Shown in pieces: positions 4,574-20,928 of a stretch of 64,000 nt of DNA. The notes beneath the pieces were generated by a model that was given only the letters and a program-made list of their open reading frames with translations, was not told where the DNA came from and did not search any database. How positions within the stretch are numbered: position 1 is the first letter of the stretch; each line of letters starts with the position of its first letter. The stretch spans positions 2,542,001 through 2,606,000 of the forward strand of contig NZ_CP134867.1 in the NCBI RefSeq assembly GCF_031954525.1, given 5' to 3'. Source of the DNA: Dyella sp. BiH032. Lineage in GTDB: Bacteria; Pseudomonadota; Gammaproteobacteria; Xanthomonadales; Rhodanobacteraceae. Position numbers and translations under genes: made by a program.

Positions 4574-4587
4574 TTGACGCGGATCAA
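4574..4587 (-). promoter_or_regulatory. FNR-type box (phasin operon)
   Basis: TTGACGCGGATCAA, matching TTGAY-N4-RTCAA. It lies 68 bp before the phasin ATG. On the minus strand TAGGTT at 4546-4551 is centred 32 bp from the box centre, close to class II FNR spacing. Confidence 0.75.
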
Positions 4588-4706
4588 GCGGAGCCGATGC
4601 GGCCGCGCACGCGCTTGCCTCGCACGTTGCGCGGCGCGCGCCCCAGCACGCGGTCGTAGCGGCGCATGAAACGCGCCAGCGAGATCCAGCCGTCAACCGT
4701 CTGACT
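4584..4706 (-). pseudogene. Possible AraC C-terminal remnant
   Basis: A reading frame ending at 4584 contains WISLARFMRRYDRVLGRAPR followed by a basic tail. This resembles the last helix-turn-helix of AraC/XylS regulators, where an F-x-R-x-F...G-x-x-P-x-x-R pattern ends the protein. No upstream AraC domain is present, so it would be a degraded fragment, or chance. It partly overlaps the metallothionein 3' end and the FNR box. Confidence 0.25.
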
Positions 4707-4881
4707 GCTCTTCGGGCCGGGCCTGCGGGCTGGTGCCGCAGGGCGGATGCCCGCATCCGCAGAGGGTTTCCGGAACATGGTTCGCCGCCGCCTTGCGGCA
4801 GTGCTCGCTGCAGAATTCGCCTTCGGAGGACACGGTGCATTTGCATGGCGCGTGCCCGCATTTGAAACCGTTCTCGGCCAT
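4693..4881 (-). CDS. Bacterial metallothionein
   Basis: A 62-residue cysteine-rich protein of the SmtA/BmtA metallothionein family, which binds zinc or other soft metals in the cytosol. Cysteines form the order KCGHAPCKC, FCSEHC and LCGCGHPPC, with accompanying histidines, as in the family. I place the start at 4881 because AGGGAG precedes it; an upstream in-frame start adds a basic stretch without family likeness. It lies 129 bp downstream of the RNR-like gene on the same strand and may be cotranscribed from that FNR-boxed promoter (inference). Confidence 0.85.
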   Translation of the reverse strand: MAENGFKCGHAPCKCTVSSEGEFCSEHCRKAAANHVPETLCGCGHPPCGTSPQARPEEQSDG

Positions 4882-5010
4882 GGCGTGGCTCCCTGAAAAG
4901 GAGGAGAAACCGTACTTTCGTCCCGGCGCCGTCCAGTGGCCGTGACCCGCGCGTGAGGGGCGCGGCAAGGCGGGAACGTTCAGCCGCCGCTTCGCCGCCC
5001 GGCGCGGCCT

Positions 5011-6042
5011 TCAGACGACGCCGAGCGCGGCGGCCGCCTTGACGGTCTCGGCCGTGGCGGGCGTGGCCAGCGGGTAGAGGATGGGGTTGTCGATCCACAT
5101 CTGCATGGCCGCGCGCAGCTCGATCTGGGCTTCGGACGACAGCGCGTCCAGTTCGCCGGTCAGCGTGCGCAACGCCTGGCGCGCATGGAGGCGCTGGGCC
5201 AGGGCTATGGCATAGCCGGGCGAACAGACCGAACGGGTGGCATCGGCACCCGAGATCGTGTGTGCGTAGCCCTGGGCCAGCAAGGGATCGATGGCGTCGG
5301 TCACGTTGTTCGCCAGCAGCGCGAGCCGCCGTTGCGAAGTGATGTCGGTGAGGCGCTGGTGGCGCAGGCCGTGGCGTTCGGCCTCGGCTTCGAGCTCGGG
5401 CGAGAGTTCGCGCAGCTTGTAATTGAGCGCGGGCACGTCCGGCAGAGCGAAGGCCGCGCCGCGCTCGCCCGCCAGCCGCACGCTGCCGCGCAGGCAGCCG
5501 CGCGCCAGGCTGCGCGCAATGTCGCGCGCGGCCGCGCGGCCCGGCGCACTGTCGTAAGGCAGGCGCAGCTCGGCGAGCGCGTCGGCCAGGCCGATGATGC
5601 CGATGCGCAGATGCGCGCCGGCGCGGCGCGTGCCGTTCGGGGCCATCTGCGCCGCGTCATCGAGCGCGCGCACCGCGAGTTCGGCGGTGTGCTCGAAGGC
5701 CTCGTGCCTGAAGGCGGCCTGCACGGTGAAAGGCGCCTGCACGAACACGGCCGCATTGAGCGATGCCGCCAGCCCGTCCGCGGGCCAGTCCGGCGAGTCC
5801 GTGCCGGCGGTGACGAGAAGGCGTTCGTCCAGCAGCAGCCGCCAGCCGAGGCAGGCATCCAGCAGCTGCTGTTCGAACCTTGCGTGCATGCCGTCCGGCT
5901 CGGCCGGCGAAAGCGCGCGTGCCACGCGTTGCCAGGTGTCGTTGATGGCCAGGTCGCGCAGCTGGCTGCCGTCGCGCCAGCGGAACCAGGCGTCCCAGGC
6001 TTCGACAGCGACGATGTCATGAAAGGGCGATAGATGGCGCAT
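5011..6042 (-). CDS. Ribonucleotide-reductase-like protein, truncated
   Basis: A 343-residue protein with partial likeness to the large (alpha) subunit of ribonucleotide reductase: LRIGIIGLADALAELRLPYDS near residue 145 recalls the G-x-x-G-x-x-D...PY(D)S stretch of NrdA/NrdJ. It is less than half the length of a catalytic alpha chain and I do not see the full set of active-site cysteines, so it is probably not an active reductase by itself. An FNR-type box (6099-6112) and CATACT -10-like hexamer lie directly upstream, so it may act, or have regulatory value, at low oxygen. The family call is tentative. Confidence 0.55.
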   Translation of the reverse strand: MRHLSPFHDIVAVEAWDAWFRWRDGSQLRDLAINDTWQRVARALSPAEPDGMHARFEQQLLDACLGWRLLLDERLLVTAGTDSPDWPADGLAASLNAAVFVQAPFTVQAAFRHEAFEHTAELAVRALDDAAQMAPNGTRRAGAHLRIGIIGLADALAELRLPYDSAPGRAAARDIARSLARGCLRGSVRLAGERGAAFALPDVPALNYKLRELSPELEAEAERHGLRHQRLTDITSQRRLALLANNVTDAIDPLLAQGYAHTISGADATRSVCSPGYAIALAQRLHARQALRTLTGELDALSSEAQIELRAAMQMWIDNPILYPLATPATAETVKAAAALGVV

Positions 6043-6098
6043 GTTCGGCGGTGCGGGAAGTTGCGGTGCCGAGTATGCGCATCCGCCGCTGCGTCGAA

Positions 6099-6112
6099 TT
6101 GAGCCACATCAA
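6099..6112 (-). promoter_or_regulatory. FNR-type box (RNR-like gene / fnr intergenic)
   Basis: TTGAGCCACATCAA, one base off the TTGAY-N4-RTCAA pattern. On the minus strand CATACT (6072-6077) is centred 31 bp away, the class II spacing, so it most likely activates the RNR-like gene. It could also affect the divergent regulator gene, which starts 128 bp away. Confidence 0.72.
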
Positions 6113-6240
6113 CACGGGCGGTGTCGCTCTCCGTTACGCACTGTTACAAACCGTTGCCGTGCTGACGTCGCCCTGTGACAGAGCGCGTCTAAGGTCTTCC
6201 CCATGGCCGGAGACGCCATCCACCAACGGGGATCACGATC

Positions 6241-6960
6241 ATGAGCACGCAAGCCGAAACCGTCGCCGCCGCGGACACGAACCTGCCGCGTGCCGCGCAC
6301 GAAGCCGCCTTCGCGGGCCTGGACATCGAACAGCTGCGCAAATACGTCCAGGTGACCCGGCACAAAGTCGTTGCGGGCCAGTCGCTGTATCACGCCGGCC
6401 AGCCGTTCACCGCGCTGTACTTCGTCCAGTCCGGCTGCCTCAAGACGGTGGAGCTGGCCGAGGACGGCCGCGACCAGGTCACCGGGTTCCGCATGCGCGG
6501 CGACTTCCTCGGCGTGGAATCGATCGGCCTGAAGCAGCACGCGTGCAGCGCCGTCGCGCTGGAGTCGGGCGAGGTGTGGGAGCTGCCGTACCCGGCCATG
6601 CTCGCCGCCTGCCGCGACATGCCCGAACTGCAGGCCCGCCTCACCGCGGCGCTCGCCGAAGAAATCCGCAACGACCACGCCTGGATGCTGGCCATCGGCA
6701 CGCTCAACGCTGAGCAGCGCGTGGCCAGCTTCCTGGTCGACGTGGCCCGCCGTTACGCCCGCATGGGTTATAGCGCGCGCCATTTCATCCTGCGCATGCG
6801 CCGCACCGACATGGCCAATTTCCTCGCGCTCAAGCACGAGACGGTCAGCCGCGTCATGTCGCGCCTGGACGAGCTGCGCCTGATCGAAGTGGAACGCCGC
6901 GAAGTGCGCGTGCTGAACGATGCAGGGCTGCGCCAGCTCGCTGGCATGCGCGCCTGCTGA
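6241..6960 (+). CDS. Crp/Fnr-family regulator without Fe-S cysteines
   Basis: A 239-residue Crp/Fnr regulator: cyclic-nucleotide-binding-like beta barrel (about 30-140), dimer helix, and winged helix-turn-helix (about 160-235). The recognition helix reads ALKHETVSRVMSRL, with E200, S203 and R204 matching the FNR residues that read TTGAT half-sites. Its cysteines are only C66, C102, C124 and C239: the N-terminal cysteine cluster of FNR is absent and the position of the fourth ligand is W113 (EVWELP). So it should bind FNR-type boxes but sense something other than oxygen through a 4Fe-4S cluster. It is the likely regulator of the nine boxes in this region (inference). Confidence 0.88.
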   Translation: MSTQAETVAAADTNLPRAAHEAAFAGLDIEQLRKYVQVTRHKVVAGQSLYHAGQPFTALYFVQSGCLKTVELAEDGRDQVTGFRMRGDFLGVESIGLKQHACSAVALESGEVWELPYPAMLAACRDMPELQARLTAALAEEIRNDHAWMLAIGTLNAEQRVASFLVDVARRYARMGYSARHFILRMRRTDMANFLALKHETVSRVMSRLDELRLIEVERREVRVLNDAGLRQLAGMRAC

Positions 6961-6968
6961 ACCGGCCG

Positions 6969-7057
6969 AGGAGCGAGCCGCGAGGGTGCCGCGTTGGGGC
7001 CGGCGTCCGTCTGGGGCCTGATGGACGTGGGTAACGGCACCCTCGCTGGTCGCTCCT
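6969..7057. terminator. Long inverted repeat between convergent genes
   Basis: Arms 6969-6991 and 7035-7057 are complementary at 21 of 23 positions, with a 43-base loop. It sits between the convergent regulator and histidine-kinase genes and extends just to the kinase stop. It may act as a two-way terminator; no U-tract is seen. Confidence 0.5.
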
Positions 7058-7067
7058 TGGAAAGCGA

Positions 7068-9092
7068 TTACTTGGTGTGCCCGTCCAGCGCGCCGCGCAC
7101 CGATGCCGCGAGCTGCTCGATGCGATACGGCTTGCGCAGCAGTTCCACGCGGCTCAGCGAGGCATCCTCCGCGTCCAGCGAACCGCGTTCGTAACCGGAG
7201 GTGAGCAATACCGGCAGCCCCGGCCGCTGTTGCCGCGCGGCCTTCGCCAGTTCCGCGCCGGTCATGCCGTTGCCCAGTACCACGTCCGAGAACAGCAGGT
7301 CGATGTCCGGGTAGCGCTCGAGCACTTCCAGGGCCTCGGCCGCGTCCGCCGCCTGACGGGTGGCATAGCCCAGCGAACGCAGGAAGGCGAGGGCGATGCC
7401 GCGCACTTCCGGCTCGTCCTCCACCACCAGGATGGTCTCGTGGCCCTGGCGCACGGCAGGTGTGGTGGCGACCGGCGCTGCGGCGGGCTCCGGCACTACG
7501 GCCGGAAAATGCAGTTCCACCCGCGTGCCGTAGCCGAGCTGGCTGTCGATGCTCAGGTAGCCGCCGGACTGCTTGACGAAGCCGTACACCATGCTCAGGC
7601 CCAGGCCGCTGCCCTTGCCGACTTCCTTGGTAGTGAAGAACGGTTCCAGCGCATGCGCCTGCACGTCCGGCGTCATGCCCATGCCGGTGTCGCCCACGCT
7701 GAACACCACGTACTCGCCGGCCGGCTTCTTGAGGCTGGCATGGCGGTCGTCCACGCGTTCGTGCGTCACCGCGATGGTCAGCTTGCCGCCGCGCGGCATG
7801 GCATCGCGCGCGTTGACCGCCAGGTTGACCAGGGCGGCGTCGAATTCCGCCGGGTCCACGTAGATCGCCGGCACGTCCTGCGGGCACTCGGCTGCTACCA
7901 GGATGCGCTCACCGAGCGTGCGCGCCAGCATCTCGCGCAGGTCGCCCAGCACCTGGCCGGGCATCACCGCGCGTGGCGACAGGCGGCGTCGGCTGGCGAA
8001 AGACAGCAGCTTGCTGGTCAGCGTGGCGCAGCGGTCGGTGGCGCGCGCGGCGCTTTCGACGATCTCGTTGAGCGGAGAAGGCTGCGGCAGCGAGGCCATC
8101 AGCAACTGCAGGTTGCCCGAGATTACCGTCAGCAGATTGTTGAAGTCGTGCGCGATGCCGCCGGTCAGCTGGCCGATCGCATCCAGCCGCTGCGCGTGCG
8201 AGAGCTGCTCCTCGCTGCGGCTGCGCTGCACGGCGGAGGCCAGCATGTTGGCAACGGCCTGCAGGAAGTGCAGCTTGTCGTGGTCGAAGCTCTCCGGTTC
8301 GCGGGCCGGCACCACCAGCAGGCCCATGGGTTCGTAGCGATCGGACAGCGGCACGATGGCGGCGTCGCGGAATGCCGTGCCGGCGAGCAGGCCGCTCACA
8401 TCGGCGCCGGTGCGCGACAGCACCACCGGGCCGCTCTCGCCCTTGGCCATCCATGGACCCTGCGAGAGCCGCTGGGCGAAGCCGCGCAGCACTTCGTGCG
8501 GCAGGCCGGTGGAGGCGCGCACGTGCAGGTCGTTGCCATGGGTGTCGCGGAACAGGATCAGGGTGGCTTCGGTGTGCAGTGCCGAGGCGATCAGCGCCGC
8601 CATGCCGTCCACGGCCACGTCGAGGTTGGGCGATTCCAGCAGCAGCCGGCTGATCTGGGTGAGGAAGGTGTCGTAGCGCGCGCGCACCAGTGCCTGGCGC
8701 GCGCGCTGGGTCTCGGAGATGTCGCGGATGGACGCCGCGAACAGCGTGTGTCCATTGGTCTGGATCGGACTCAGGCCGATCTCCACCGGGAACTGCTGGC
8801 CGTTGCGCCGCACGCCGGTCAGTTCGTAGCCCGCGCCCATCGGGCGCACCCGCGGCGAGGACATGTAGCGCCCGCGATGCTGGGTGTGCGCCTGGCGCAC
8901 CTGCTCCGGCAGCAGGGCTTCCACTTTCAGCCCGCGCAGCTGGCCTTCCTCGTAGCCGAACAGGCGGTCGGCCTGGGGATTGGCCAGCACGATCTCGCCC
9001 TGCAGGTCCACCACGATCATCGCGTCCGGCGCCGTGTCGAACAGCGCCTTGAACAGGTCCGCGCCGGCGATCGTATCGGGGAAGGCGTTCAT
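7068..9092 (-). CDS. PAS-GAF hybrid histidine kinase
   Basis: A 674-residue soluble hybrid sensor kinase. Order: PAS (about 10-130), GAF (about 145-290), HisKA with phospho-acceptor H315 in GGIAHDFNNLL, HATPase_c with N box NLAVNARD (423-430), G1 DTGMGM (468-473) and G2 GKGSGLGLS (492-500), then a C-terminal receiver (about 552-670) with D603 in FSDVVLG. No membrane segment is present, so it senses a cytosolic signal through PAS or GAF. It overlaps the upstream response-regulator gene by 4 bp. The pair lies amid the FNR-boxed genes, but I saw no box upstream of it. Confidence 0.9.
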   Translation of the reverse strand: MNAFPDTIAGADLFKALFDTAPDAMIVVDLQGEIVLANPQADRLFGYEEGQLRGLKVEALLPEQVRQAHTQHRGRYMSSPRVRPMGAGYELTGVRRNGQQFPVEIGLSPIQTNGHTLFAASIRDISETQRARQALVRARYDTFLTQISRLLLESPNLDVAVDGMAALIASALHTEATLILFRDTHGNDLHVRASTGLPHEVLRGFAQRLSQGPWMAKGESGPVVLSRTGADVSGLLAGTAFRDAAIVPLSDRYEPMGLLVVPAREPESFDHDKLHFLQAVANMLASAVQRSRSEEQLSHAQRLDAIGQLTGGIAHDFNNLLTVISGNLQLLMASLPQPSPLNEIVESAARATDRCATLTSKLLSFASRRRLSPRAVMPGQVLGDLREMLARTLGERILVAAECPQDVPAIYVDPAEFDAALVNLAVNARDAMPRGGKLTIAVTHERVDDRHASLKKPAGEYVVFSVGDTGMGMTPDVQAHALEPFFTTKEVGKGSGLGLSMVYGFVKQSGGYLSIDSQLGYGTRVELHFPAVVPEPAAAPVATTPAVRQGHETILVVEDEPEVRGIALAFLRSLGYATRQAADAAEALEVLERYPDIDLLFSDVVLGNGMTGAELAKAARQQRPGLPVLLTSGYERGSLDAEDASLSRVELLRKPYRIEQLAASVRGALDGHTK

Positions 9093-9853
9093 GTGCGGCG
9101 GACCCGTTCGGTGAAGATGTAGCCGGTGCCGCGTACCGACTTGAACAGCGGCGGGCGGTCCGGATCGGCGTCGATCTTGCGTCGCAGCCGGCTCAATTGC
9201 ACGTCGATGGCGCGATCGTACGGGCCAACGTCGCGTCCATGGATGCGGCTCATGATGTCGTTGCGCGACAACACCCGGTTCGGATGGTCCAGGAACAGCT
9301 TGAGCAGGTCGAATTCGCCGGTGGTCAGCGGGATCTCCTTGCCGTCGGCATCGACCAGCACACGCGCCCCCGGGTCCAGGCGGAAGCCGGCGAATTCCAG
9401 CAGTCCGTCTGCGGGTGCGGCGTCGACCACCGCCGCGGGCGGCGCCGTGCGGCTGGCATAGCGGCGCAGCACGCTGCGCACGCGGGCGAGCAGTTCGCGC
9501 AGGTCGAAGGGCTTGGTCACGTAGTCGTCCGCGCCCAGTTCCAGCCCCACCACGCGGTCCACCGACTCACCCCGGCCGGAGACGATGATGATCGGGCCTT
9601 GCCAGTGCTCGTGCAGGTAGCGGGTCAGGGCGAAGCCGTCTTCGCCGGGCAGGCCCAGGTCCAGCAGGATCAGGTCGACCGGACCGGCGGCGAGCGCCTG
9701 GCGCAGCATGGCGCCATTGGCGGCGACGTCGACGGTGAAGCCCTGGCTGCCGAGATAGCGGCTGACCAGGGCGGAGATGTCCGGATCGTCCTCCACCACC
9801 AGCAGGCGCTGGGGGCGGGTCTCCTGATCCGATGCCGAATTCGCGACAGACAT
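9089..9853 (-). CDS. OmpR-family response regulator
   Basis: A 254-residue response regulator: receiver domain with D-D pair in LVVEDDPDIS, phospho-acceptor in LILLDLGLPGEDG and K in DYVTKPFDLREL, followed by an OmpR/PhoB winged helix (RVLSRNDIMSRIHGRDVGPY, then RLRRKIDADP). Start 9853 has AAGAGG ahead and avoids a non-conserved N-tail present if an upstream codon is used. Its stop overlaps the kinase start, so the two are coupled. Targets are unknown; a 15-bp palindrome at 9997-10,011 could be its own operator (inference). Confidence 0.9.
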   Translation of the reverse strand: MSVANSASDQETRPQRLLVVEDDPDISALVSRYLGSQGFTVDVAANGAMLRQALAAGPVDLILLDLGLPGEDGFALTRYLHEHWQGPIIIVSGRGESVDRVVGLELGADDYVTKPFDLRELLARVRSVLRRYASRTAPPAAVVDAAPADGLLEFAGFRLDPGARVLVDADGKEIPLTTGEFDLLKLFLDHPNRVLSRNDIMSRIHGRDVGPYDRAIDVQLSRLRRKIDADPDRPPLFKSVRGTGYIFTERVRRT

Positions 9854-9996
9854 GCAAAGCCTCTTGGGTGGCATGCGCGCCCGGGATGCGCCGGCGGCGG
9901 CCATGGCCTGTCCGCTGCCGATGTTCCGGACGTCCCCTCTCGTAGGGTTCCTTCCAAAGCGAAAGATACCCCGCCGGGGCCCCCATCGCTGTAGTC

Positions 9997-10152: not shown

Positions 10153-10875
10153 TCAGCCCATGCGCTGGCCGCCGTTGATGTCGATGGTGGCGCCGGTGAT
10201 GAAGCCCGCATCGTCGCGCACCAGCATGGTGACCACCCGCGCGATCTCTTCCGGCAGGCCCAGGCGCGCGACCGGGATCGCCTCCACGATGCCCTTGAGC
10301 ACCTCCGGCGCGACCGCGCCGACCATCTCGGTTTCGCAGTAGCCCGGCGCCACCGCGTTCACGGTGATGCCCTTGCACGCGCTTTCCAGCGCCAGCGACT
10401 TGGTGAAGCCGATGACGCCCGCCTTGGAAGCCGCGTAGTTGGCCTGGCCGAGCTGGCCCTTCTGGCCGTTGATCGAGCTGATGTTGACGATGCGGCCGAA
10501 GCCGCGCTCGCGCATGCCGCCGACCGCGTGGCGGCACATGTTGAACATGGAGCCCAGGTTGGTACGGATGACCTCCCACCACTGCGCTTCGCTCATGCGG
10601 TGCAGCATGGCATCGCGGGTGATCCCGGCGTTGTTGACCAGGATCTCGACCGGCCCCAGATCGCGCTCGATGCGCGCCAGCCCGTCGGCGCAGGCGGCGT
10701 GGTCGGCCACGTCCCAACCATAGACGGGGATGCCGGTGTCGTCGAAGAACGCCCGGGCGGCATCCTCGTTGCCGCGGTACACCGCCGCGACGTGGTGCCC
10801 TTCGGCCAGCAGGCCCGTGGCGATGGCGCGGCCCAGACCGCGGGTTCCTCCGGTGACGACGGCGACGCGTGGCAT
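10153..10875 (-). CDS. phaB: Acetoacetyl-CoA reductase (SDR)
   Basis: A 240-residue short-chain dehydrogenase with the profile of PhaB, which reduces acetoacetyl-CoA to (R)-3-hydroxybutyryl-CoA with NADPH for PHB synthesis. It shows the nucleotide motif TGGTRGLG, NNAGITRD, the S-Y-K triad within NISSINGQKGQLGQANYAAS, and the family tail ITGATIDINGGQRMG. Start 10,875 has AGGAG just upstream; an in-frame upstream start lacks support. Two FNR-type boxes lie in the divergent promoter region. No phaC synthase is in the window. FabG-like activity is the alternative. Confidence 0.85.
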   Translation of the reverse strand: MPRVAVVTGGTRGLGRAIATGLLAEGHHVAAVYRGNEDAARAFFDDTGIPVYGWDVADHAACADGLARIERDLGPVEILVNNAGITRDAMLHRMSEAQWWEVIRTNLGSMFNMCRHAVGGMRERGFGRIVNISSINGQKGQLGQANYAASKAGVIGFTKSLALESACKGITVNAVAPGYCETEMVGAVAPEVLKGIVEAIPVARLGLPEEIARVVTMLVRDDAGFITGATIDINGGQRMG

Positions 10876-10931
10876 GGCGGCACTCCTGGCGGGCGACGCC
10901 GCCATCAGGCCAAAGCGCCGGGCAGGGCGCA

Positions 10932-10945
10932 TTGACTCCCGTCAA
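10932..10945 (-). promoter_or_regulatory. FNR-type box (phaB side)
   Basis: TTGACTCCCGTCAA, 57 bp before the acetoacetyl-CoA reductase ATG. The -10-like hexamer at class II spacing (CCTGAT, 10,904-10,909) is weak. A second box lies 22 bp further on. Confidence 0.65.
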
Positions 10946-10981: not shown

Positions 10982-11055
10982 CTCACCATAAGAGCCCCCG
11001 GACTAGCGTGTCCGGACGGGTGCCAGGGTGGACCGCCAAGCGGAGAGCGACGCGA

Positions 11056-12348
11056 ATGACGCTTCCTCGCCAGGGATATTTCGATGACCGGGAGCACGCG
11101 GCCGAACGGCTGCTGGAGCCCTTGCTCGCCTATCGCGGGCAGCATCCACTGATCCTCGCCATTCCGCGCGGCGGCGTGCCGATCGGCCGCCTGCTCGCCG
11201 ACCGCCTCGGCGGCGAGCTGGACGTGGTGCTGGTGCGCAAGATCGGCGCACCGGGCCACGAGGAGTTCGCCGTGGGCGCCGTCGCCGAAGACGGCGAGGT
11301 GTGGGTAGCCGAGCACGCCGAACGCGTGGGCGCCGATGCCGGCTACGTGGAGCAGGAGGCCGCGCGCCAGCGTGCCGTGATCGCCCGGCGCCGCGACTTG
11401 TATAGCCCGCATCGCCATGCCATCGACCCGGCCGGCCGCACCGTGATCGTGGTGGACGACGGCCTCGCCACCGGCGCCACCATGCGGGCCGCGCTGGTCG
11501 CGCTGCGCGCGCGTCACCCGGCCAGGCTGGTGTGCGCTGTGCCGGTCGCTTCGCCGCGCAGCCTGGCCGACATCCGTCCACTGTGCGACGACGTGGTCTG
11601 CGTGGCGGCGCCGCGCGAATTCATGGCGGTAAGCCAGTACTACCGCGACTTCCCCGCGGTGGACGATGCGGAAGTGGTGCGGCTGCTCGGACAGCCCGCG
11701 GCGGTAGAGGGCGAAGCCAAGGCCGTCCGCATTCCGGTCGACGGCGCGCGCCTGGAGGGCGACCTGGAAGTGCCGCCGGGCGCGACGGGTGTGGTGATCT
11801 TCGCGCACGGTAGCGGCAGCAGCCGTTTCAGTCCGCGCAACCGGCAGGTGGCGGCGACCTTGCGCGAGCATGGGCTGGCCACGCTGCTGTTCGACCTGCT
11901 CGGCGCGCACGAGGACACCGCGGTCGCCGCGCGCTTCGACATCGAGCGATTGTCCGCGCGGCTCGAAGCGGCCGTGGAGTGGGCGGCCCGCCAGCCGGAC
12001 ATCGCGCGTCTGCCGATCGGCTTGTTCGGCGCCAGCACCGGCGCGGCTGCAGCGCTTACGGTGGCCGCGCGGCTGCCGCGCGCGGTCCGCGCGGTGGTGT
12101 CGCGCGGCGGACGTCCCGACCTCGCCGGGCACGCCGTGCTGGGCGATGTGCAGGCGCCCACCTTGCTGATCGTCGGCAGCGCGGACACCGACGTCGTCGC
12201 GCTCAACAAATCCGCGCTGGCCTCGATGAACCAGACCGTCGAGCTGGTGCTCGTTCCTGGCGCCACGCATCTGTTCGATGAACCCGGAACGCTCGAGCGC
12301 GTCGCTTCCCTGGCGAGCGCGTGGTTCGGCCGCTGGCTGCATGCATGA
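11056..12348 (+). CDS. Phosphoribosyltransferase - alpha/beta hydrolase fusion
   Basis: A 430-residue two-domain protein. Residues 1-215 are a type I phosphoribosyltransferase with PRPP loop IVVDDGLATGATMRA (about 131-145). Residues 228-430 are a dienelactone-hydrolase-like alpha/beta hydrolase with FAHGSGSS and nucleophile motif LFGASTGAAA. Start 11,056 has GGAGAG upstream and the conserved opening. Such fusions are known in proteobacterial stress loci, but the substrate is not established. An FNR-type box sits 75 bp upstream. The two domains may act on a phosphoribosyl intermediate or be simply co-regulated (inference). Confidence 0.85.
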   Translation: MTLPRQGYFDDREHAAERLLEPLLAYRGQHPLILAIPRGGVPIGRLLADRLGGELDVVLVRKIGAPGHEEFAVGAVAEDGEVWVAEHAERVGADAGYVEQEAARQRAVIARRRDLYSPHRHAIDPAGRTVIVVDDGLATGATMRAALVALRARHPARLVCAVPVASPRSLADIRPLCDDVVCVAAPREFMAVSQYYRDFPAVDDAEVVRLLGQPAAVEGEAKAVRIPVDGARLEGDLEVPPGATGVVIFAHGSGSSRFSPRNRQVAATLREHGLATLLFDLLGAHEDTAVAARFDIERLSARLEAAVEWAARQPDIARLPIGLFGASTGAAAALTVAARLPRAVRAVVSRGGRPDLAGHAVLGDVQAPTLLIVGSADTDVVALNKSALASMNQTVELVLVPGATHLFDEPGTLERVASLASAWFGRWLHA

Positions 12349-12376: not shown

Positions 12377-12480
12377 AAGGTAACCACTGGGCCCGCCTAT
12401 GCTCGGACTTGGACTGCGCTCCGGCCATCGCGCACGGAGCGTCCGTCCCAACCCGACTTGCCGATCCGGAGGTAACCGCC

Positions 12481-12927
12481 ATGGCAAACGTGACCCGCTG
12501 GAACCCCCTCAAGACGATCGCCCGCATCGATCCCGCGACCGATTTCGAAGACTTCTTCCGCAACTTCGGCCTGCGCCCGCGCTGGAACGAAATGGCCATC
12601 GCGCCCGACGTGCGCATCAATGTCGCCGAGACCGACGGCGCCTATCGCGTCGAAGCGGAAATTCCCGGTGTGGACAAGAGCGACATCGACGTGCAGGTGC
12701 ATGGCGACCAGGTCTCCATTACTGCCGAGGTCAAGCGCGAGACCAAGGAGAAGGAGGGCGAGCGCGAGATCTTCACGGAGCGCAGCTTCGGCCAGGTCTA
12801 TCGTTCCTTCACCCTGCCCGGCGAAGTGGACAGCGACAAGGCCGCCGCGCACTACGAGAACGGCGTGCTCACCCTGCAACTGCCGAAGAAGCACAACGGC
12901 AACGGCCGCAAGGTTACCGTCAGCTGA
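12481..12927 (+). CDS. Hsp20 small heat-shock protein
   Basis: A 148-residue alpha-crystallin-type chaperone that binds unfolding proteins without ATP. It has the N-terminal arm MANVTRWNPLKTI, an alpha-crystallin domain (about 45-140) with IPGVDKSDIDVQV and the conserved ENGVLTLQLPKK near the C-terminus. CCGGAGG lies 8 bp before the ATG. It has the clearest FNR-type promoter of the region (box 12,363-12,376 with TATGCT at 31 bp), so it is probably induced by low oxygen or energy stress rather than only heat. Confidence 0.93.
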   Translation: MANVTRWNPLKTIARIDPATDFEDFFRNFGLRPRWNEMAIAPDVRINVAETDGAYRVEAEIPGVDKSDIDVQVHGDQVSITAEVKRETKEKEGEREIFTERSFGQVYRSFTLPGEVDSDKAAAHYENGVLTLQLPKKHNGNGRKVTVS

Positions 12928-13032
12928 CACGGCGGGCGTCGTCCGCGAGCCAGCCCTGAGCATGGTCATCCGCTCGCGTGCCGGCTTGGCCGGCGCGCGG
13001 CGGTGCCCGGGCCGGCACCGTGGAGATGCCGC

Positions 13033-14310
13033 ATGACCGTGACCCATCCGCTCGACCTGATCCGTGGCACCGCGATCCGCCTAGGCGGTGTCGCCGGGGA
13101 CTACGACGCGCTGCTGGAGTCCGTCGGCGATCGTCCGCTGGTCTTGCTGGGCGAAGCCACGCATGGCACGCGCGAGTTCTATCGCATGCGCGCCGAGATC
13201 ACGTTGCGGCTGATCCGGGAAAAAGCCTTCGACGCGGTCGCCGTGGAAGCGGACTGGCCGGATGCCTACCGGCTAAACCGTTACGTCCGCGGCGAGGACG
13301 GCGGCGCCGATGCCGAGGAGGCGTTCGGCGACTTCCAGCGCTTTCCCGTGTGGATGTGGCGCAATGAGGAAGTATTGCGCTTCGTCCGCGAGTTGCGCGA
13401 CATCAACGCCAGCCGCGCGCCGGAAGGGCGTATCGGTTTCTATGGACTGGACATGTACAGCTTGTACCGCTCGTCCGAAGCGGTGATCGCCTACCTCGAC
13501 GACGTGGACCAGGAACAGGCCGCGCTGGCGCGCGAACAATACGCGACGCTCGATCACGTGCGCGACCCGCAGCGCTACGGCTACGAAGCCGTGTCCGGCC
13601 TGCGCCCCGACGCCCGCGCCGTGGTGCAGGAACGCCTCAACGAATTGCTCCGCCGCGCACCCGCGTATCTGGAACTGGACGGCCGCCCCGCCGCGGATGC
13701 GTTCTTCTTCGCCGAACGCAACGCGCAGGTGGTGAAGAGCGCGGAGGCGTATTACCGCGCGATGTTCGGCAGCCGCGCGGAAAGCTGGAACCTGCGAGAT
13801 CGCCACATGGTAGAAACTCTGTTCGCGCTGCAGTCCTATCTGCGCAAGCAGGAGCGGCCCGGCCGCGTAGTGGTATGGGCACACAACTCCCATCTGGGCG
13901 ATGCGCGCGCCACCGAGATGTCGCGCGCCGGCGAGTGGAACGTGGGACAACTGGTGCGCGAAGCCTTAGGGCCGCAACAGGCTTTCCTCGTCGGCTTCAC
14001 CACCAGCACGGGCACCGTGACCGCCGCGCATGACTGGGGTGGCGAGGCCGAGAGCCGCAAGATTCGCGTGGCCTTGCCGGAGAGCTACGAAGGGCTGTTT
14101 CAACGCACACGCCTGCAACGGTTCTACCTGCCACTGGGCGGGCCGGTTGGGGAGGCGCTGAAAGTGCCGATGCTGGAGCGCGCGATCGGCGTGCTGTACC
14201 GACCGGAGACGGAGTATCACAGTCATTACTTCATGGCTTCGCTCCCCGCGCAGTTCGACGCGGTGTTTCATCTGGATGAGACAAGTGCGGTCGAGCCGAT
14301 GGATGGTTGA
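13033..14310 (+). CDS. Erythromycin-esterase-like protein
   Basis: A 425-residue member of the erythromycin-esterase (EreA / succinoglycan biosynthesis) family. Conserved features are LLGEATHGTREFYRMRAEI near the start (with E and H of the putative metal/catalytic site), a VEADWPD motif, GFYGLDMYSLYRS and WAHNSHLGDA. Start 13,033 has GGAG upstream; an earlier in-frame codon adds a non-conserved tail. Family members in stress clusters commonly occur next to phosphoribosyltransferases, and the physiological reaction is usually unknown. Antibiotic resistance should not be assumed. Confidence 0.87.
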   Translation: MTVTHPLDLIRGTAIRLGGVAGDYDALLESVGDRPLVLLGEATHGTREFYRMRAEITLRLIREKAFDAVAVEADWPDAYRLNRYVRGEDGGADAEEAFGDFQRFPVWMWRNEEVLRFVRELRDINASRAPEGRIGFYGLDMYSLYRSSEAVIAYLDDVDQEQAALAREQYATLDHVRDPQRYGYEAVSGLRPDARAVVQERLNELLRRAPAYLELDGRPAADAFFFAERNAQVVKSAEAYYRAMFGSRAESWNLRDRHMVETLFALQSYLRKQERPGRVVVWAHNSHLGDARATEMSRAGEWNVGQLVREALGPQQAFLVGFTTSTGTVTAAHDWGGEAESRKIRVALPESYEGLFQRTRLQRFYLPLGGPVGEALKVPMLERAIGVLYRPETEYHSHYFMASLPAQFDAVFHLDETSAVEPMDG

Positions 14311-15038: not shown

Positions 15039-15082
15039 AAAGCAAACGCCAAGAAACAAGCGCCAGCGACGAACAACAAGCG

Positions 15083-15916
15083 CTAATGCCGCAACAACAA
15101 CGGCACCCTCCCATACTCCAACACATACCGCGTCGCCCCACCCAACACCCACTCCCTAAACCGCGTATGTCCATACGCCCCCATCACCAGCAACCCCGCC
15201 CCGACCCTTTCCGCCGCCCGCAGCAGCGCGGCCCCCACTTCCTCGTCGCCATCGCCGGCAAGCATCTCGCTCTCGGCCTGCAGCCCATGGCGCAACAGAT
15301 AACCGGCCAGATCGAACGGAGGGCGCCACGCCAGCATGCTCGCCGGTGGCCGCTGCTCTCCATGCAGAATCACGATGCGCCGCGCGCGGGCCAGGAGCGG
15401 CATCGCCGCATGCGCCGCGCGCAATGCTTCGGCCGAACCATTCCAGGCGATGACTGCCGTTTCCAGCGATGGCACGTGCGTGGGCGCGCCGTGCGGCACT
15501 ACCAGGCAAGGCAGGGAGGCGCCCAGCACGATATTGCCTACGGCGGAGATCGAACCCCACGGCGTATTGGGCGTGCGCTCGACCACCAGGAGATCGTGCC
15601 AGCTGCCGGCCAGGGCCAGCACATCGGGGAGATAACCTTCGGCGACCAGCCAGGACGCCTTGCGCAGGCCGAACTCCAGCGCGCGTTGTTCGAAGGCGGG
15701 GCCGGCGGCGTAGGCTTCTTCTTCGAGCTCGCGCGTCGCGTCGTAGAGCTCGGCCATCAGGTCGGGCGCCTCGAAGGACGGCGCAGCCATCGTCGGCGAG
15801 GCGCAGATCCAAGTGCCCGTGAGGTGAGCGTCGAAGGCGACGGCCAGGCGCGCGGCATATTCGATGCCGGGCGACCACTGCTTGAAGCTTTCGGAAAGAA
15901 CCAGGATGTCGCGCAT
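15083..15916 (-). CDS. Universal stress protein, tandem UspA
   Basis: A 277-residue protein with two UspA-like domains in tandem. The second is the better conserved, with the nucleotide-binding tail LLVMGAYGHTRFREWVLGG (G-x2-G-x9-G pattern). Start 15,916 has GGGAG ahead; the longer frame runs into the dodecin gene and is rejected. It follows dodecin by 25 bp, so the two share the FNR-boxed promoter (16,244-16,257). Tandem Usp proteins under FNR/ANR control are known from Pseudomonas anaerobic survival. Confidence 0.9.
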   Translation of the reverse strand: MRDILVLSESFKQWSPGIEYAARLAVAFDAHLTGTWICASPTMAAPSFEAPDLMAELYDATRELEEEAYAAGPAFEQRALEFGLRKASWLVAEGYLPDVLALAGSWHDLLVVERTPNTPWGSISAVGNIVLGASLPCLVVPHGAPTHVPSLETAVIAWNGSAEALRAAHAAMPLLARARRIVILHGEQRPPASMLAWRPPFDLAGYLLRHGLQAESEMLAGDGDEEVGAALLRAAERVGAGLLVMGAYGHTRFREWVLGGATRYVLEYGRVPLLLRH

Positions 15917-15941
15917 GGCACCCACTCCCGGCGCGATGGCC

Positions 15942-16148
15942 TCAGTCGACGATGAAGGTGACGCGCAGGCAGGCGCGCCACTCGGTGATGTCGCCGTTGG
16001 GCGAGGTGCGTACCTTGATGTCGCTGACCCAGGCTCCCTGGACCTTGTCGATGGTGCCGGCGACTTTGCGCAAGCCGCCCTGGATGGCGTCTTCCAGGCT
16101 CTTGCTGGAAGCGGCATTGATCTCGATCGTCTTGGCGACGTTGTTCAT
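15942..16148 (-). CDS. Dodecin
   Basis: A 68-residue dodecin, the small flavin- and CoA-binding dodecameric protein. It shows the family order AKTIEINAASSKSLEDAI, then a conserved W in VQGAWVSDIKV and IVD at the end. GGGGG precedes the ATG. It is the first gene of the dodecin - universal stress protein operon. The FNR-type box with TACATT -10-like hexamer 31 bp away lies upstream, so flavin storage may be coupled to low oxygen (inference). Confidence 0.92.
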   Translation of the reverse strand: MNNVAKTIEINAASSKSLEDAIQGGLRKVAGTIDKVQGAWVSDIKVRTSPNGDITEWRACLRVTFIVD

Positions 16149-16243
16149 GGCGTACCCCCGCTGCAGATGGCGAGCTGACAGGTGACGCCGCGGCTGAACC
16201 CGCGGCGGGCCGGGTCAATGTAGTCCCGGCCCGCCGTGGCTTA

Positions 16244-16257: not shown

Positions 16258-16346
16258 AGCCGGCCCGAGCCCGCGAAGCGGACGATAGGCGCACGCCACC
16301 GCGCCCGGCGTGGCGCGCCGGGCGGACGGCGTCGGCGAAGCGTGCG

Positions 16347-16676: not shown

Positions 16677-16803
16677 GGTTGGCCTCCATCGGCCCGGGAA
16701 CCGACTCAGCCTGCGCCCGATCGCGTCAAGAAATACTGAAAAACACGCTCCGCTCGCGTGGCACGTGCTGTGATGCGAAGCACCATTCCGCGGAAGCCTG
16801 GCC

Positions 16804-17016: not shown

Positions 17017-17059
17017 GCACGCCACACGGCGCCATGGCACGCGCACGTCGCGGAGCCGA

Positions 17060-17073
17060 TTGACGCAGATCAA
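17060..17073 (+). promoter_or_regulatory. FNR-type box (CBS-BON)
   Basis: TTGACGCAGATCAA, identical to the box at 20,915. GATACT at 17,095-17,100 is centred exactly 31 bp downstream; the ATG follows at 17,125. Confidence 0.82.
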
Positions 17074-17124
17074 CGTCGCGCCTTTGCCGGCTTCGATACT
17101 GGACCGGTCCTGCAGGAGCGACCG

Positions 17125-17844
17125 ATGAAAGTCCGCGACGCGATGACCCGGCATGTGCAGACGCTGACGCCGGACACTTTGCTGATCGATGCCATGCGCA
17201 TGATGCTGCGCGAGCGCGTCAGCGGCCTGCCGGTGGTTGACCTGCGCGGGGCCGTGGTGGGCGTGCTTACCGAGGGCGACCTCATGCGGCGCGCCGAGCT
17301 GGGCACCGAGCGCAGGCATCCGCACTGGCTCAGCTTCGTGCTCGGCCCCGGCAGACTGGCGCGCGAATACACTGCCAGTCACGCGCGGCGCGTGGACGAG
17401 GTCATGACCCGCGAGGTGGTCACCATCAGCGCTGATGCGCCATTGGCGGAGGCCGTGCGGCTGATGGAGGAGCACCGCATCAAGCGGCTGCCGGTGCTTT
17501 ACCACCACTGGCTGGAGGGCATCCTCAGCCGCGCCGACCTGATGCGCGCCTTCGTGAGCGCTGCGCCCGGCGTCGCACCGGACGATCTCTCCGACGCGGC
17601 GATCGCGCGGCGCATTGCCGTGGAATTCGACGTGCAGCCCTGGACACCGCGTAACACGGCGCATGCGGACGTCGAGGGCGGCGTGGTGACGCTGCGCGGC
17701 GTGCTGCTGAACGATGCCACCCGCGATGCGCTGAAGGTGCTGGTCGAGAACGTGCCGGGCGTGGTGCGCGTCGTCGACCAACTGGCCACCGTCGAGCCCA
17801 TGACCGGCGCGGTGGTCCGCCTGCCGGACGCCGCCGCGCGCTAG
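17125..17844 (+). CDS. CBS-CBS-BON protein
   Basis: A 239-residue protein with a CBS pair (about 5-65 and 88-145; repeats GVLTEGDLMRRAE and GILSRADLMRAF) followed by a BON domain (about 160-225; VEGGVVTLRGVL...VPGVVRVVDQL). CBS senses adenylates and BON binds lipids or membranes, so the protein may report energy state at the envelope (inference). GGAG precedes the ATG. It has its own FNR-type promoter. Its stop overlaps the convergent ftsH stop by 4 bp. Confidence 0.9.
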   Translation: MKVRDAMTRHVQTLTPDTLLIDAMRMMLRERVSGLPVVDLRGAVVGVLTEGDLMRRAELGTERRHPHWLSFVLGPGRLAREYTASHARRVDEVMTREVVTISADAPLAEAVRLMEEHRIKRLPVLYHHWLEGILSRADLMRAFVSAAPGVAPDDLSDAAIARRIAVEFDVQPWTPRNTAHADVEGGVVTLRGVLLNDATRDALKVLVENVPGVVRVVDQLATVEPMTGAVVRLPDAAAR

Positions 17845-19712
17845 GCCGGCGTGCCGCCGGCACGGGTAGTCATGGGCGGCGATGCGTCCGCCGTGGCGGA
17901 GGGAAGCAGCAGCGCCCGCAATTCGTCTCCGGACAGAGTCTCTTTCGCCAGCAGCTGTGTCGCGGCGCGTTCCAGCACGGCACGCTCGCCCGCCAGGATG
18001 GCGCGTGCGCGCACAAAGGCGCCGTCGACCAGTTCGCGCACGGCCTTGTCGGCCACGGCGGCGGTCGCTTCGCTATAAGGCTTGGCGGCATGTTCGGCGG
18101 GCCGGATGTCGAGCATGGTCGGTGTACCGGATTCGTAGCTCACCTGGCCAAGTTCCGGTGCCATGCCATAACTGAGCACCATGCTGCGCGCGATTTCCGT
18201 GGCCTTGGCCAAGTCGTCCGCGGCGCCCGTGGAGATGTCGCCGGATACCAGCGACTCGGCCGCGCGGCCGCCCAGCAGCACGGTCATCTTGTCGGCCAGT
18301 TCGTTGCGCGACATCAGGAAGCGGTCCTCGGTGGGCCGCTGGATGGTGTAGCCCAGTGCCGCGATGCCGCGCGGGATGATCGACACCTTCTGCACGGTGT
18401 CGGTGCCGGGCAGGGCCAGCGCGACCAGCGCGTGGCCCAGTTCGTGATACGCGACGACGCGGCGTTCGTCCGGGCTGAGAATGCGCGTCTTCTTCTCCAG
18501 GCCCGCGATCACGCGCTCGATCGCCTCGGCGATGTCGCTCTGCTGCACTGCCTGCGCATGTCGCCGCGTGGCGAGCAGGGCGGCCTCGTTGATGAGGTTG
18601 GCCAGGTCCGCGCCAGTGAAGCCGGTGGTGAGCGCGGCGATCTCGTCGAGCGAGACGCCGGTGTCGAGTTTTACCTTGCGCGCATGCACTTGCAGGATCG
18701 CGACGCGGCCGCTCTTGTCCGGCCGGTCCACCAGGATCTGCCGGTCGAAGCGGCCGGCGCGCAGCAGCGCGGGGTCGAGAATCTCCGGGCGGTTGGTGGC
18801 CGCCAGCAGCACCACGCCGCTGCTCGGGTCGAAGCCATCCAGCTCGGTGAGCAGCTGGTTGAGCGTCTGTTCCTTTTCGTCCTGGCCGCCGCTCACCGGC
18901 GAGATGCCGCGCGCGCGCCCGAGCGCGTCCAGCTCGTCGATGAAGATGATGCACGGCGCGCTTTCCCGCGCCCGCTCGAACAGGTCGCGCACACGCGCGG
19001 CGCCCACGCCGACGAACAGCTCGACGAACTCCGAGCCGCTGATCGACAGGAACGGCACGCCCGCCTCGCCGGCGACCGCACGCGCCAGCAGCGTCTTGCC
19101 GGTGCCGGGCGGGCCGACCAGCAGCACGCCTTTCGGGATGTGCGCACCCAGGCGCCCGTAGCCTTGCGGGTCGCGCAGGAAGGCGATGATTTCCTTGAGT
19201 TCCTCTTTGGCTTCGTCCACGCCGGCCACATCGGCGAAGGTGGTGCTGATCGCGCGCTCCATGAAGATCTTCGCCTTGCTCTTGCCGATGGCCATCAGGC
19301 CGTCGCCACGTCCGCCCGGCGCGCGGCCGGCGAGGAACATCCACATGCCGGCGAACAGCAGCAGAGGGAAGATCCACCCGACGATGCGCTCGGCCAGGCC
19401 GGGGCCGGGTTCGCCGGTGTAGGTGACCTTGGCCGACGACAGCGTGTGCGCCAGTTCGTCGGGTACGCGCATGGCGGTGAAGCGGCGCGGGCGGCCCTGG
19501 GCGTCGGGCTTGCGGTAGGTGCCGCGAACGGCGTCGTCCGTCACGGTGACATCGCCGATGTCCCCCGCCTGCAGCGCCGTCACGAACTGGCTGTACGGGA
19601 TGGTTTCCCGCGCGCTATCGGCAGTGATGTAGCCCTGGATCACGAGCACGCCCAGCAGCGCGACGAGCGCGTACCAGAGGGCCAGGTGCTGCTGCCTTTC
19701 GGGCTTTGCCAC
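17841..19712 (-). CDS. ftsH: FtsH-type AAA protease, accessory copy
   Basis: A 623-residue membrane-bound AAA/zinc protease: two transmembrane segments (about 10-28 and 110-128) flanking a periplasmic domain, AAA domain with Walker A GPPGTGKT (200-207), Walker [18 protein letters not shown]...RAGRFDR, and M41 zinc site HELGH (423-427). It starts with GTG and GAGGA upstream. It is diverged from typical housekeeping FtsH and lies among stress genes, so it is probably an extra copy for damaged membrane proteins. An FNR-type box lies 58 bp upstream, but its better -10 faces the other gene. Confidence 0.9.
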
Positions 19713-19769
19713 GCGGAGATCCTCGAAGAGCTTTCATTGCCATCGTGACAAGTGGCGCGCCTGGCCGAC

Positions 19770-19783
19770 TTGACGTACGTCAA
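19770..19783. promoter_or_regulatory. FNR-type box (ftsH / secreted protein)
   Basis: TTGACGTACGTCAA, a perfect palindrome. For the plus strand, GATGCT (19,805-19,810) is centred exactly 31 bp away. On the minus strand CACGAT at 32 bp is weaker, so activation of the secreted-protein gene is more likely. Confidence 0.75.
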
Positions 19784-19842
19784 CGTGGCCGGGGCATGGC
19801 GAGGGATGCTTGCGCCAGAGATCCGCCGTCCCGGAGGGAAGC

Positions 19843-20280
19843 ATGAAGACGTCCGCGCTGTGGCTGGCTTGCTGCCTCGCCGGAGCCGCCTGGGCGCAGT
19901 TGCCGGCACCGCCGCGCGCCTGCGCGCTGGCCTTCGCTTCCACGAACTGGTGGCCGCTCTACCGCGGCTTCACCGGCGAAGGCACGATCCGCTGCAGCGA
20001 CGGGCATAGCGTACGTGTGCACGTGATCGCGCAGGGCCGCGGCTTGAGCATCGACCACTGGAAGATCGCGCACGGCACGGGGCGCTACAGCCAGTTGACG
20101 AGCACGGACGATGCGCTGGGGCATTTCGTGCGCACACGCGACGGCACGCGCCTGGTGAAGGACGGTCGCGCCACGGGCGCGGAAAGTGCGCGGCCGCACT
20201 TGGCGCTGGCGGGGTTGGGACAGGGCTTCGATGCCGAACATGCGATCGACGATCTGCGCATCGAGCGCGCCGGGCCCTGA
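19843..20280 (+). CDS. Small secreted protein, unknown
   Basis: A 145-residue protein with a clear signal peptide (MKTSALWLACCLAGAAWAQ) and no domain I recognise. The mature part has two cysteines that may form a disulfide, and the pattern GEGTIRCSDGHSVRVHV. I chose ATG 19,843, which has GGAGG nearby, over an upstream in-frame start. It has its own FNR-type promoter. It ends 20 bp from the convergent flavodoxin gene. Similar short exported proteins often accompany FNR/ANR stress clusters, but no function can be given. Confidence 0.75.
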   Translation: MKTSALWLACCLAGAAWAQLPAPPRACALAFASTNWWPLYRGFTGEGTIRCSDGHSVRVHVIAQGRGLSIDHWKIAHGTGRYSQLTSTDDALGHFVRTRDGTRLVKDGRATGAESARPHLALAGLGQGFDAEHAIDDLRIERAGP

Positions 20281-20300
20281 CCGCGGCGCGCCAGTTTCGT

Positions 20301-20843
20301 TCAGGCCCGCGCCCAGGGTCTGGTGCCGTCTTCGTCCAGCGGCATCGGGTCGAACGCGGGGCGTCGCGGCGCGTGCGCGATATCCGCGGCGAAGCCGGCG
20401 ATCTGTGCCTGGCAGGCATTGCGCATGACCTCGTCCTGGCGTAGCGCGAGGGTGGCGCGCGCGTCCTGGCAAAGCAGCTTCTCCATCTCTCCGAACACGG
20501 TATCGGCGCCTTCGCCGCCCATGGTGCAGAAGAACGCGGCCTGGCGGATGTAGCGCGCCTTGTCGTGCAGAAAGCGGCGCATCGGGCTGGCGAGATGGCC
20601 CATCCACACGGGCGTTCCGAGTACCACCATGTCGTACTGCGACAGCGGCGTGGTGCACGGCTTGATGTCGGGCAGGGAGCCGCGCATGGCTTCGAGTGCC
20701 GACTGGAGGTAGCCGAAGAGGCCGCGGCGGGGGCGCGCGTCCTGGATTGCGTAGAGGTCGGCGCCGAGCTTGTCGGCGAGTTGGCGAGCGACTTGGCGCG
20801 TGGTGCCGGAGCGGCTGTAGTAGGCGATGAGGATGCTGGACAT
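20301..20843 (-). CDS. Flavodoxin-family protein
   Basis: A 180-residue flavodoxin / NADPH-quinone-reductase-like protein. The FMN phosphate loop is YYSRSGTTRQVA near the start, with VVLGTPVWMGHLASPMRRFL and a conserved TMGGEGAD stretch. Start 20,843 (MSSILIAYYS) is the family start; the longer frame adds an unsupported N-tail. An FNR-type box lies 72 bp upstream. It may serve as an electron carrier or quinone reductase at low oxygen (inference). Confidence 0.87.
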   Translation of the reverse strand: MSSILIAYYSRSGTTRQVARQLADKLGADLYAIQDARPRRGLFGYLQSALEAMRGSLPDIKPCTTPLSQYDMVVLGTPVWMGHLASPMRRFLHDKARYIRQAAFFCTMGGEGADTVFGEMEKLLCQDARATLALRQDEVMRNACQAQIAGFAADIAHAPRRPAFDPMPLDEDGTRPWARA

Positions 20844-20914
20844 GGCGCGTGCCCCCTGTGTCGTGTGGCCGGATGTGCGCGAGCGCATCGTGGGCTGTCT
20901 GTGCTTGCTGCGGT

Positions 20915-20928
20915 TTGACGCAGATCAA
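20915..20928 (-). promoter_or_regulatory. FNR-type box (flavodoxin)
   Basis: TTGACGCAGATCAA, identical to the CBS-BON box. The -10-like hexamer at about class II spacing (CACGAT, 20,887-20,892) is weak. Confidence 0.7.

Follow-up and report, generated by a model that had tools for sequence, protein, structure and literature searches.

We analysed a 64-kb stretch of the genome of Dyella sp. BiH032 (C1:2542001-2606000 of a 5.25-Mb, three-contig genome; hereafter the window), in which nine FNR-type boxes accompany a gene for a Crp/Fnr-family regulator that begins at position 6241. Our results suggest that the boxes are likely the output of a relay, in which a histidine kinase and a response regulator act through GTTAC repeats on the regulator gene, and the product of that gene, an FNR relative without a sensor of its own, acts at the class II boxes of a stress island. 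What we observed is the boxes and their spacing, the repeats, the conservation of these elements, the missing cysteines of the regulator and two single-contig genomes in which no other FNR was found. Our best reading of the arrangement is a FixLJ-FixK-like relay assembled from different parts.

The density of boxes in the window is above chance. The pattern TTGAN5RTCAA occurs at nine places (17 strand matches; Table 1), compared with 0.40 strand matches expected from 100 shuffles, of which the highest gave 3, and a full-window scan found no exact copy anywhere else. Hexamers resembling a -10 were scored as strict (TAnnnT or SATnnT) or as members of a looser class (NAnnnT). At the boxes at 6099, 12363, 16244, 17060 and 19770 the hexamer follows a gap of 21 nt, or 31 bp centre to centre; at those at 4574 (TAGGTT) and 10968 (TAGCGT) the gap is 22 nt, or 32 bp. 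Strict hexamers at these two gaps were present at 7/9 boxes (null mean 0.23), a count reached in none of 3000 simulations, and the best of the other adjacent gap pairs gave a single one. This is the geometry of an FNR class II promoter, with the box centre near -41.5 and the -10 at 31-32 bp, and by that geometry the window boxes look like class II FNR-box promoters. The first-pass annotation of this DNA had listed the same nine places and no others, with five hexamers at 31 bp and two at 32 bp, and our re-measurement of the hexamers agrees. It also had every box as intergenic, which holds with the remark that the box at 10932 touches the longest phaB open reading frame (ORF). The acetoacetyl-CoA reductase model begins only at residue 22 of that ORF, so the true start of phaB is probably near 10875. 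A weaker hexamer at 32 bp from the box at 20915, CACGAT, had gone unnoticed. Two of the boxes, at 10932 and 10968, share the region between phaB and the phosphoribosyltransferase fusion gene at a distance of exactly 36 bp, and just one of them has a class II -10.

These boxes belong to an island of at least 43 kb that reaches beyond the left edge of the window. Genome-wide, the pattern was found at 32 distinct places (30 forward and 29 reverse matches), 22 of them intergenic by a simple gene caller, compared with 5 forward and 14 reverse matches for a backward-read control pattern. Thirteen of the 32 fall within 43 kb (C1:2519779-2562915), including four to the left of the window at C1:2519779, 2526835, 2530900 and 2541858. 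When 32 boxes were placed at random in 5000 trials, no 43-kb stretch ever held more than 6. The scan thus confirmed the clustering, and a regulon limited to the window did not survive it, given the four boxes further left and the intergenic boxes elsewhere in the genome. The latter precede, among others, the gene for a COX1-family oxidase subunit (beside fnr), hemN and an alcohol dehydrogenase gene. A strict -10 at 21/22 nt accompanies 7/13 boxes of the whole island (null 0.31) and 5/9 of the intergenic boxes outside it (null 0.26). Four of the boxes form another small group within 9 kb (C1:1347403-1356441; two intergenic, two inside called ORFs), near genes for a Nramp-type transporter and an SDR protein, the latter followed by a universal stress protein (USP) gene.

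The same arrangement recurs in relatives. The 6241 regulator or an orthologue (threshold E<=1e-40) is present in 24 of 78 family genomes, our own included, and we took the stretches round the regulator from the 23 relatives (one-sided or shortened in G066, G061, G057 and G015). These stretches contain 136 of the relatives' 594 palindromic boxes, compared with 5.06 expected by genome rate, and the clustering is significant (P<0.05) in 20/23 relatives. A strict -10 at 21/22 nt accompanies 61/136 of the local boxes; other adjacent gap pairs gave a mean of 4.2 and a maximum of 16. With our own island included, the half-sites are separated by 4 nt 147 times and by 2, 3, 5, 6 or 7 nt 0-3 times. By a crude gene caller 74/136 boxes are intergenic, a figure on which we do not rely. 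The median number of boxes per genome is 24 with the regulator (23 genomes) and 14 without it (50 genomes, being the 54 that lack it minus G027, G037, G071 and G077; six of the 50 hold a distant regulator). Together these counts are strong evidence, at the level of sequence, for class II promoters. We found no point in favour of the boxes being chance matches or the artefact of a repeat element, and this explanation can be set aside with near certainty: the counts relative to shuffles and random placement, the clustering in relatives, the half-site spacing and the -10 gap counts are all contrary to it.

The 6241 protein, as its residues indicate, is an FNR relative that has kept the DNA-recognition residues and lost the oxygen-sensing Fe-S site. 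Among solved structures it matched FNR with 130 bits, FixK2 with 63 and DNR with 43; it scored 157.1 bits with the NCBIfam FNR subfamily model, under the 228-bit cut-off, and its closest named match is from Dyella marensis (81%). FNR proteins have the recognition helix signature E-x-x-S-R, which the helix of the 6241 protein fits, several orthologues having T in place of S. The N-terminal cysteine cluster of FNR is absent, and the position of the fourth cysteine is occupied by W (16/18 regulators have W there). The motif C-x2-C-x4-8-C is missing from the island regulators of all 31 distinct loci, two of them Variovorax (32 rows less one duplicate, L036 and G068 being the same genome), and is present in 11/11 comparison FNRs, namely our own and ten of the same class but other families. 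It is also absent from two additional Variovorax regulators and from five distant ones of Xanthomonadales, that of L133 not being among them. The missing cysteines and the W at the fourth position rule out that the 6241 protein is a canonical oxygen-sensing FNR. Candidate orthologues from further afield were rejected. A class-wide search at E<=1e-45 matched 17/369 genomes, which are our own, G014 and 15 outside the family (36-42% identity); ten of these 15 sequences were checked and all bear the cysteines. The match in Burkholderia multivorans is, by eye, another FNR that bears the cysteines; no island surrounds it, and 45 kb contain a single box.

The regulator gene has a promoter of a different kind. 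It contains a direct repeat of three GTTAC units, a candidate operator that would lie at about -69 to -45 relative to the start of transcription that we propose for the 6241 gene; direct repeats with a 10-bp period are expected for OmpR-type dimers. The triple is the sole copy in the genome even when one mismatch is allowed. We rejected the box at 6099 as the main activator of the regulator gene: its -10 faces the gene for the ribonucleotide reductase (RNR)-like protein, and the 6241 gene has a separate promoter, marked by the GTTAC repeats and a different -10. With a relaxed box pattern, a box is found upstream of the regulator in 20/31 distinct loci.

A perfect GTTAC pair with a 10-bp period is present upstream of the regulator in 27 of the 29 distinct Xanthomonadales loci counted after the duplicate L036 was dropped (exceptions G061 and L041). 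TAnnnT lies exactly 57 bp from the first GTTAC in 21 of these 27, at 58 bp in one and at 67 bp in one, and was not found in four. In four of the five Variovorax loci the sequence is GTTAC-GATTC-GTTGT and TAGCAT lies 47 bp from GTTAC, which is the same register shifted by one unit; the fifth (L142) has a degenerate repeat that the pattern does not match. We also searched the 78 family genomes for the triple at <=1 mismatch. It was found in 30/78, comprising 20/24 with a close regulator (missing from G057, G072, G008 and G061) and 10/54 without. Of the 25 exact triples, 17 precede a close regulator and 4 a distant one, 3 stand next to a response regulator gene and 1 lies elsewhere. Where no close regulator is present, 6/6 inspected repeat sites lie 140-210 bp from the gene of a 34-38% identical regulator, with a kinase and a response regulator nearby (one site in each of six of the 10 genomes; G021, G027, G033, G049 and two of the three G001 sites were left out). 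Second triples, facing away from the response regulator gene, occur in G014, G036 and G065 with the -10 at 57, 58 and 57 bp (coordinates L107:3253, L108:16809 and L110:16832). The gene served in G014 encodes a USP by Pfam, and the counterparts in G036 and G065 are alike by eye. An isolated exact triple in G065 (G065:C2, L135:3187), far from any module and with TAAGGT at 57 bp, is a possible distant target.

In 27/29 Xanthomonadales loci, the regulator has genes for a kinase and an OmpR-type response regulator at a distance of 2.6-3.7 kb; of the exceptions, G066 ends at a contig edge and L041 is without a response regulator. The terminal part of the DNA-binding domain of the response regulator is strongly conserved among orthologues. 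The solved structures closest in sequence to the kinase PAS domain are the PAS of a multi-sensor kinase and then that of FixL. The FixL histidine position is H in 35/35 kinase orthologues, and the FixL arginine position varies among the same 35 (Y, Q, F, M, H or L); haem in the PAS domain is possible. The role of the repeat as a response-regulator site is a prediction, and the repeat could instead be the site of another factor, the kinase-regulator pair having nothing to do with the 6241 gene. The degenerate repeat that L041 keeps without a response regulator and the exact G065 site distant from any module would fit this. We regard it as improbable, given that repeat, kinase and response regulator are co-conserved, that the 57-bp geometry is fixed and the direct repeats have a 10-bp period, that three relatives have a second repeat next to the response regulator gene and that a search led by the repeat recovered distant modules.

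A further FNR was detected at E<=1e-60 in 8/23 relatives. In four of the other 15 (G008, G047, G066 and G069) the island regulator is the only match to the Dyella FNR at E<=1e-25. Because G008 and G066 hold further Crp-family proteins, we chose G047 and G069 as test cases. In these single-contig genomes no FNR was found besides the island regulator, and Clp (90-92% identity to our own Clp, with a CRP-type helix) is the sole further Crp-family protein above the threshold. Local boxes have NAnnnT at 21/22 nt in 7/7 cases in G047 and 2/3 in G069, compared with ~13/136 (~10%) at other gap pairs. If the boxes work, the sensorless protein would be the only box reader found in G047 and G069. The Dyella genome also encodes a cysteine-bearing FNR (C1:3236873-3237649), in which both the cysteine motif and a recognition helix of sequence ETVSR are present, and this protein might be the oxygen sensor for all boxes, the 6241 protein being a minor or unrelated paralogue. 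Consistent with this, the intergenic boxes before the oxidase gene beside fnr and before hemN have the same spacing. We nevertheless consider it unlikely that the cysteine-bearing FNR alone accounts for the island: the boxes of relatives cluster round the 6241 orthologue, and G047 and G069 keep spaced local boxes with no other FNR found. A more serious alternative, to which we give slightly less than an even chance and which overlaps our preferred explanation, is that both proteins act at the boxes, the Fe-S-type FNR for oxygen control and the kinase-driven sensorless FNR as a second input, via a cascade or heterodimers. The two coexist in the Dyella genome and share their recognition residues, and cooperating Fnr paralogues are described for Herbaspirillum (PMC5934665); on the other side, 4/23 relatives are without an FNR match besides the island regulator at E<=1e-25. 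The cysteine-bearing FNR of Dyella is probably able to read these boxes too.

In the relay that we favour, the PAS-GAF hybrid kinase would pass phosphate to the OmpR-type response regulator, which would bind the GTTAC triple and so switch on the 6241 gene. The 6241 protein would then bind the FNR-type boxes and activate the island promoters. Low oxygen or redox may be the signal that enters, and the Fe-S-type FNR may read the boxes as well. Several observations weigh against this scheme. The regulator is patchy, being present in 24/78 family genomes and 2/5 in the genus; G057 has 0 local boxes, and in G066 and G061, where the stretches are one-sided and reach contig ends, clustering is not significant. 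No fitting -10 hexamer was found on either strand for the box at 10932, and of the ten local boxes that G047 and G069 have between them, a single one has a strict -10. A strict -10 at 21/22 nt also accompanies 2/10 boxes inside genes (null 0.23, P 0.02), so this control is not flat. At the repeat promoters, TAnnnT at exactly 57 bp is missing from 6/27, and from 5/6 of those before distant regulators (it is present in G001 only). A backward-read control of the repeat matches 19/78 genomes, and inexact repeat matches alone therefore carry little weight. L041 has no response regulator, and in Variovorax L126 the kinase and response regulator are ~13 kb off. The FixL arginine position is not conserved, so support for an oxygen-sensing kinase is weak. 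Finally, our own genome also has the cysteine-bearing FNR.

The relay layout resembles FixL-FixJ-FixK of rhizobia, in which a PAS kinase and a response regulator control a sensorless Crp/Fnr activator with TTGA-type boxes, and FixL is among the closest structures to the kinase PAS. It differs in that the Dyella response regulator is OmpR-type (Trans_reg_C) rather than FixJ-type, the activator is nearer FNR than FixK and the targets are stress genes. With canonical FNR/ANR regulons the island shares the box, the recognition helix and class II spacing, whereas its local regulator is without Fe-S ligands. The DosR regulon of Mycobacterium tuberculosis has a different regulator family and box. The likeness there is in USPs and alpha-crystallin under hypoxia, a parallel that has been drawn between DosR and the lxa locus (PMC6127331).

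The kind of island is already known, because the low-oxygen-activated lxa locus of Burkholderia cenocepacia (BCAM0275-BCAM0323; PMC4981469) has much of the same gene list by name. In a comparison by product names only, the two share USPs, a heat-shock protein (Hsp20 in Dyella), the acetoacetyl-CoA reductase PhbB, a cell-division-type metallopeptidase, an RNR-like protein, a zinc alcohol dehydrogenase, cytochrome b561 and a cation ATPase, together with a local Crp-family (Crp/Fnr) regulator and a response regulator with neighbouring gene numbers (PMC4981469), and a BON protein (PMC6127331). PMC4505428 reports that an FNR-box-like motif accompanies many Burkholderia genes induced at low oxygen, mentions Burkholderia FNR proteins in which the cysteines are retained and leaves the roles of the several FNR regulators of lxa-type islands poorly defined. 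The Dyella island, in contrast, has a cysteine-less FNR and an OmpR-type response regulator with a candidate GTTAC operator. Islands that resemble it are found on plasmids of other bacteria. In Paraburkholderia graminis, the plasmid-borne lxa-like set is accompanied by a cysteine-bearing FNR and by a response regulator of NarL/FixJ type (by eye), and 4/5 of the boxes there have a -10 at the class II gap. Plasmid p1 of Rhizobium lentis (L129:1-41278) carries Hsp20, USP, phosphoribosyltransferase, esterase, FtsH, BON, CBS and PAS kinase genes with 13 boxes in 41 kb; 8/13 are accompanied by a strict -10 at the 21/22-nt gap, and the Crp/Fnr regulator encoded there is FixK-like by eye. Variovorax plasmids have the regulator, kinase, response regulator, PhbB, USPs and boxes (3, 8, 3 and 5 in stretches of 50, 50, 30 and 25 kb). 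Similar islands thus use different controllers, and the Dyella island is a distinct variant. Among the literature matches listed, which covered the subject in part through titles and abstract openings, there was no description of a cysteine-less FNR with GTTAC repeats. The chances are evenly balanced that a portable module (kinase, OmpR-type regulator, GTTAC promoter and Fe-S-less FNR) took over an FNR-type stress regulon in Xanthomonadales and Variovorax, separately from FixLJ-FixK, in which case the oxygen sensor would now be a rewirable output factor and, in some species, the sole FNR left. The locus supplies a wiring diagram that can be tested and that contains two operator types of exact sequence. 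It would also be a natural experiment on how a factor that sensed oxygen gives up its sensor and comes under a two-component system while its boxes are kept, one that includes species with no other FNR found.

Table 1. Boxes, regulator promoter and genes of the island within the window (positions counted from its first nucleotide).
Feature	Positions	Strand	Remarks
CBS protein, thymidine/AMP-phosphorylase-like enzyme and PRPP-synthetase-like enzyme	45..2990	+	downstream of the box at C1:2541858, just outside the window
Phasin (Phasin_2)	4147..4506	-	
FNR-type box TTGACGCGGATCAA	4574..4587	-	-10 TAGGTT 4546-4551; target phasin operon
Short RNR-like protein, 343 aa	5011..6042	-	match to ribonucleotide reductase barrel domain only
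FNR-type box TTGAGCCACATCAA	6099..6112	-	divergent RNR-like/regulator region; -10 CATACT 6072-6077 towards RNR-like gene
GTTAC triple, direct repeat GTTACgcactGTTACaaaccGTTGC	6133..6157	+	10-bp period; candidate operator of OmpR-type response regulator
-10 hexamer TAAGGT of regulator promoter	6190..6195	+	57 bp from first GTTAC
Crp/Fnr-family regulator without Fe-S cysteines	6241..6960	+	recognition helix HETVSR
PAS-GAF hybrid histidine kinase	7068..9092	-	PAS nearest to multi-sensor kinase PAS, then FixL
OmpR-type response regulator (Trans_reg_C)	9089..9904	-	true start probably near 9853
Acetoacetyl-CoA reductase (PhaB-type)	10153..10932	-	family model match
FNR-type box TTGACTCCCGTCAA	10932..10945	.	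strand unassigned; no fitting -10
FNR-type box TTGACGCGGGTCAA	10968..10981	+	-10 TAGCGT 11004-11009 towards phosphoribosyltransferase fusion
Phosphoribosyltransferase-like + alpha/beta-hydrolase-like fusion	11008..12348	+	weak family matches
FNR-type box TTGATCTGCATCAA	12363..12376	+	-10 TATGCT 12398-12403; target hsp20
Hsp20	12409..12927	+	true start probably ATG near 12481
Erythromycin-esterase-family protein	13003..14310	+	
USP	15083..15916	-	
Dodecin	15942..16148	-	
FNR-type box TTGATCTGCATCAA	16244..16257	-	-10 TACATT 16217-16222; target dodecin-USP
FNR-type box TTGACGCAGATCAA	17060..17073	+	-10 GATACT 17095-17100; target CBS-BON gene
CBS-BON protein	17125..17844	+	
FtsH-type protease	17841..19712	-	
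FNR-type box TTGACGTACGTCAA	19770..19783	+	-10 GATGCT 19805-19810; target small-protein gene at 19810
Small protein	19810..20280	+	looks secreted by eye; no NCBIfam match
Flavodoxin-like protein	20301..20888	-	match below curated cut-off
FNR-type box TTGACGCAGATCAA	20915..20928	-	weaker -10 CACGAT 20887-20892; target flavodoxin-like gene

The genes of the island are listed in Table 1. To the left of the window it contains another three USPs, a cation ATPase, cytochrome b561, a zinc alcohol dehydrogenase, an MFS transporter and hemerythrin, Sir2, CHAD and HAD proteins. The genes served had been described as one low-oxygen survival programme. One regulon stands, with FNR-type boxes, class II geometry and a stress/low-oxygen gene set that is replicated in relatives; low oxygen or respiratory redox state as the inducing signal is plausible by gene content and by analogy with lxa. 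The RNR-like gene is near the regulator in some relatives and not all, and the two parts of the phosphoribosyltransferase-hydrolase fusion are separate genes in a Sphingobium plasmid. A Host_attach/baeRF family 12 protein is encoded at 3024-3647 on the same strand as the phasin gene.

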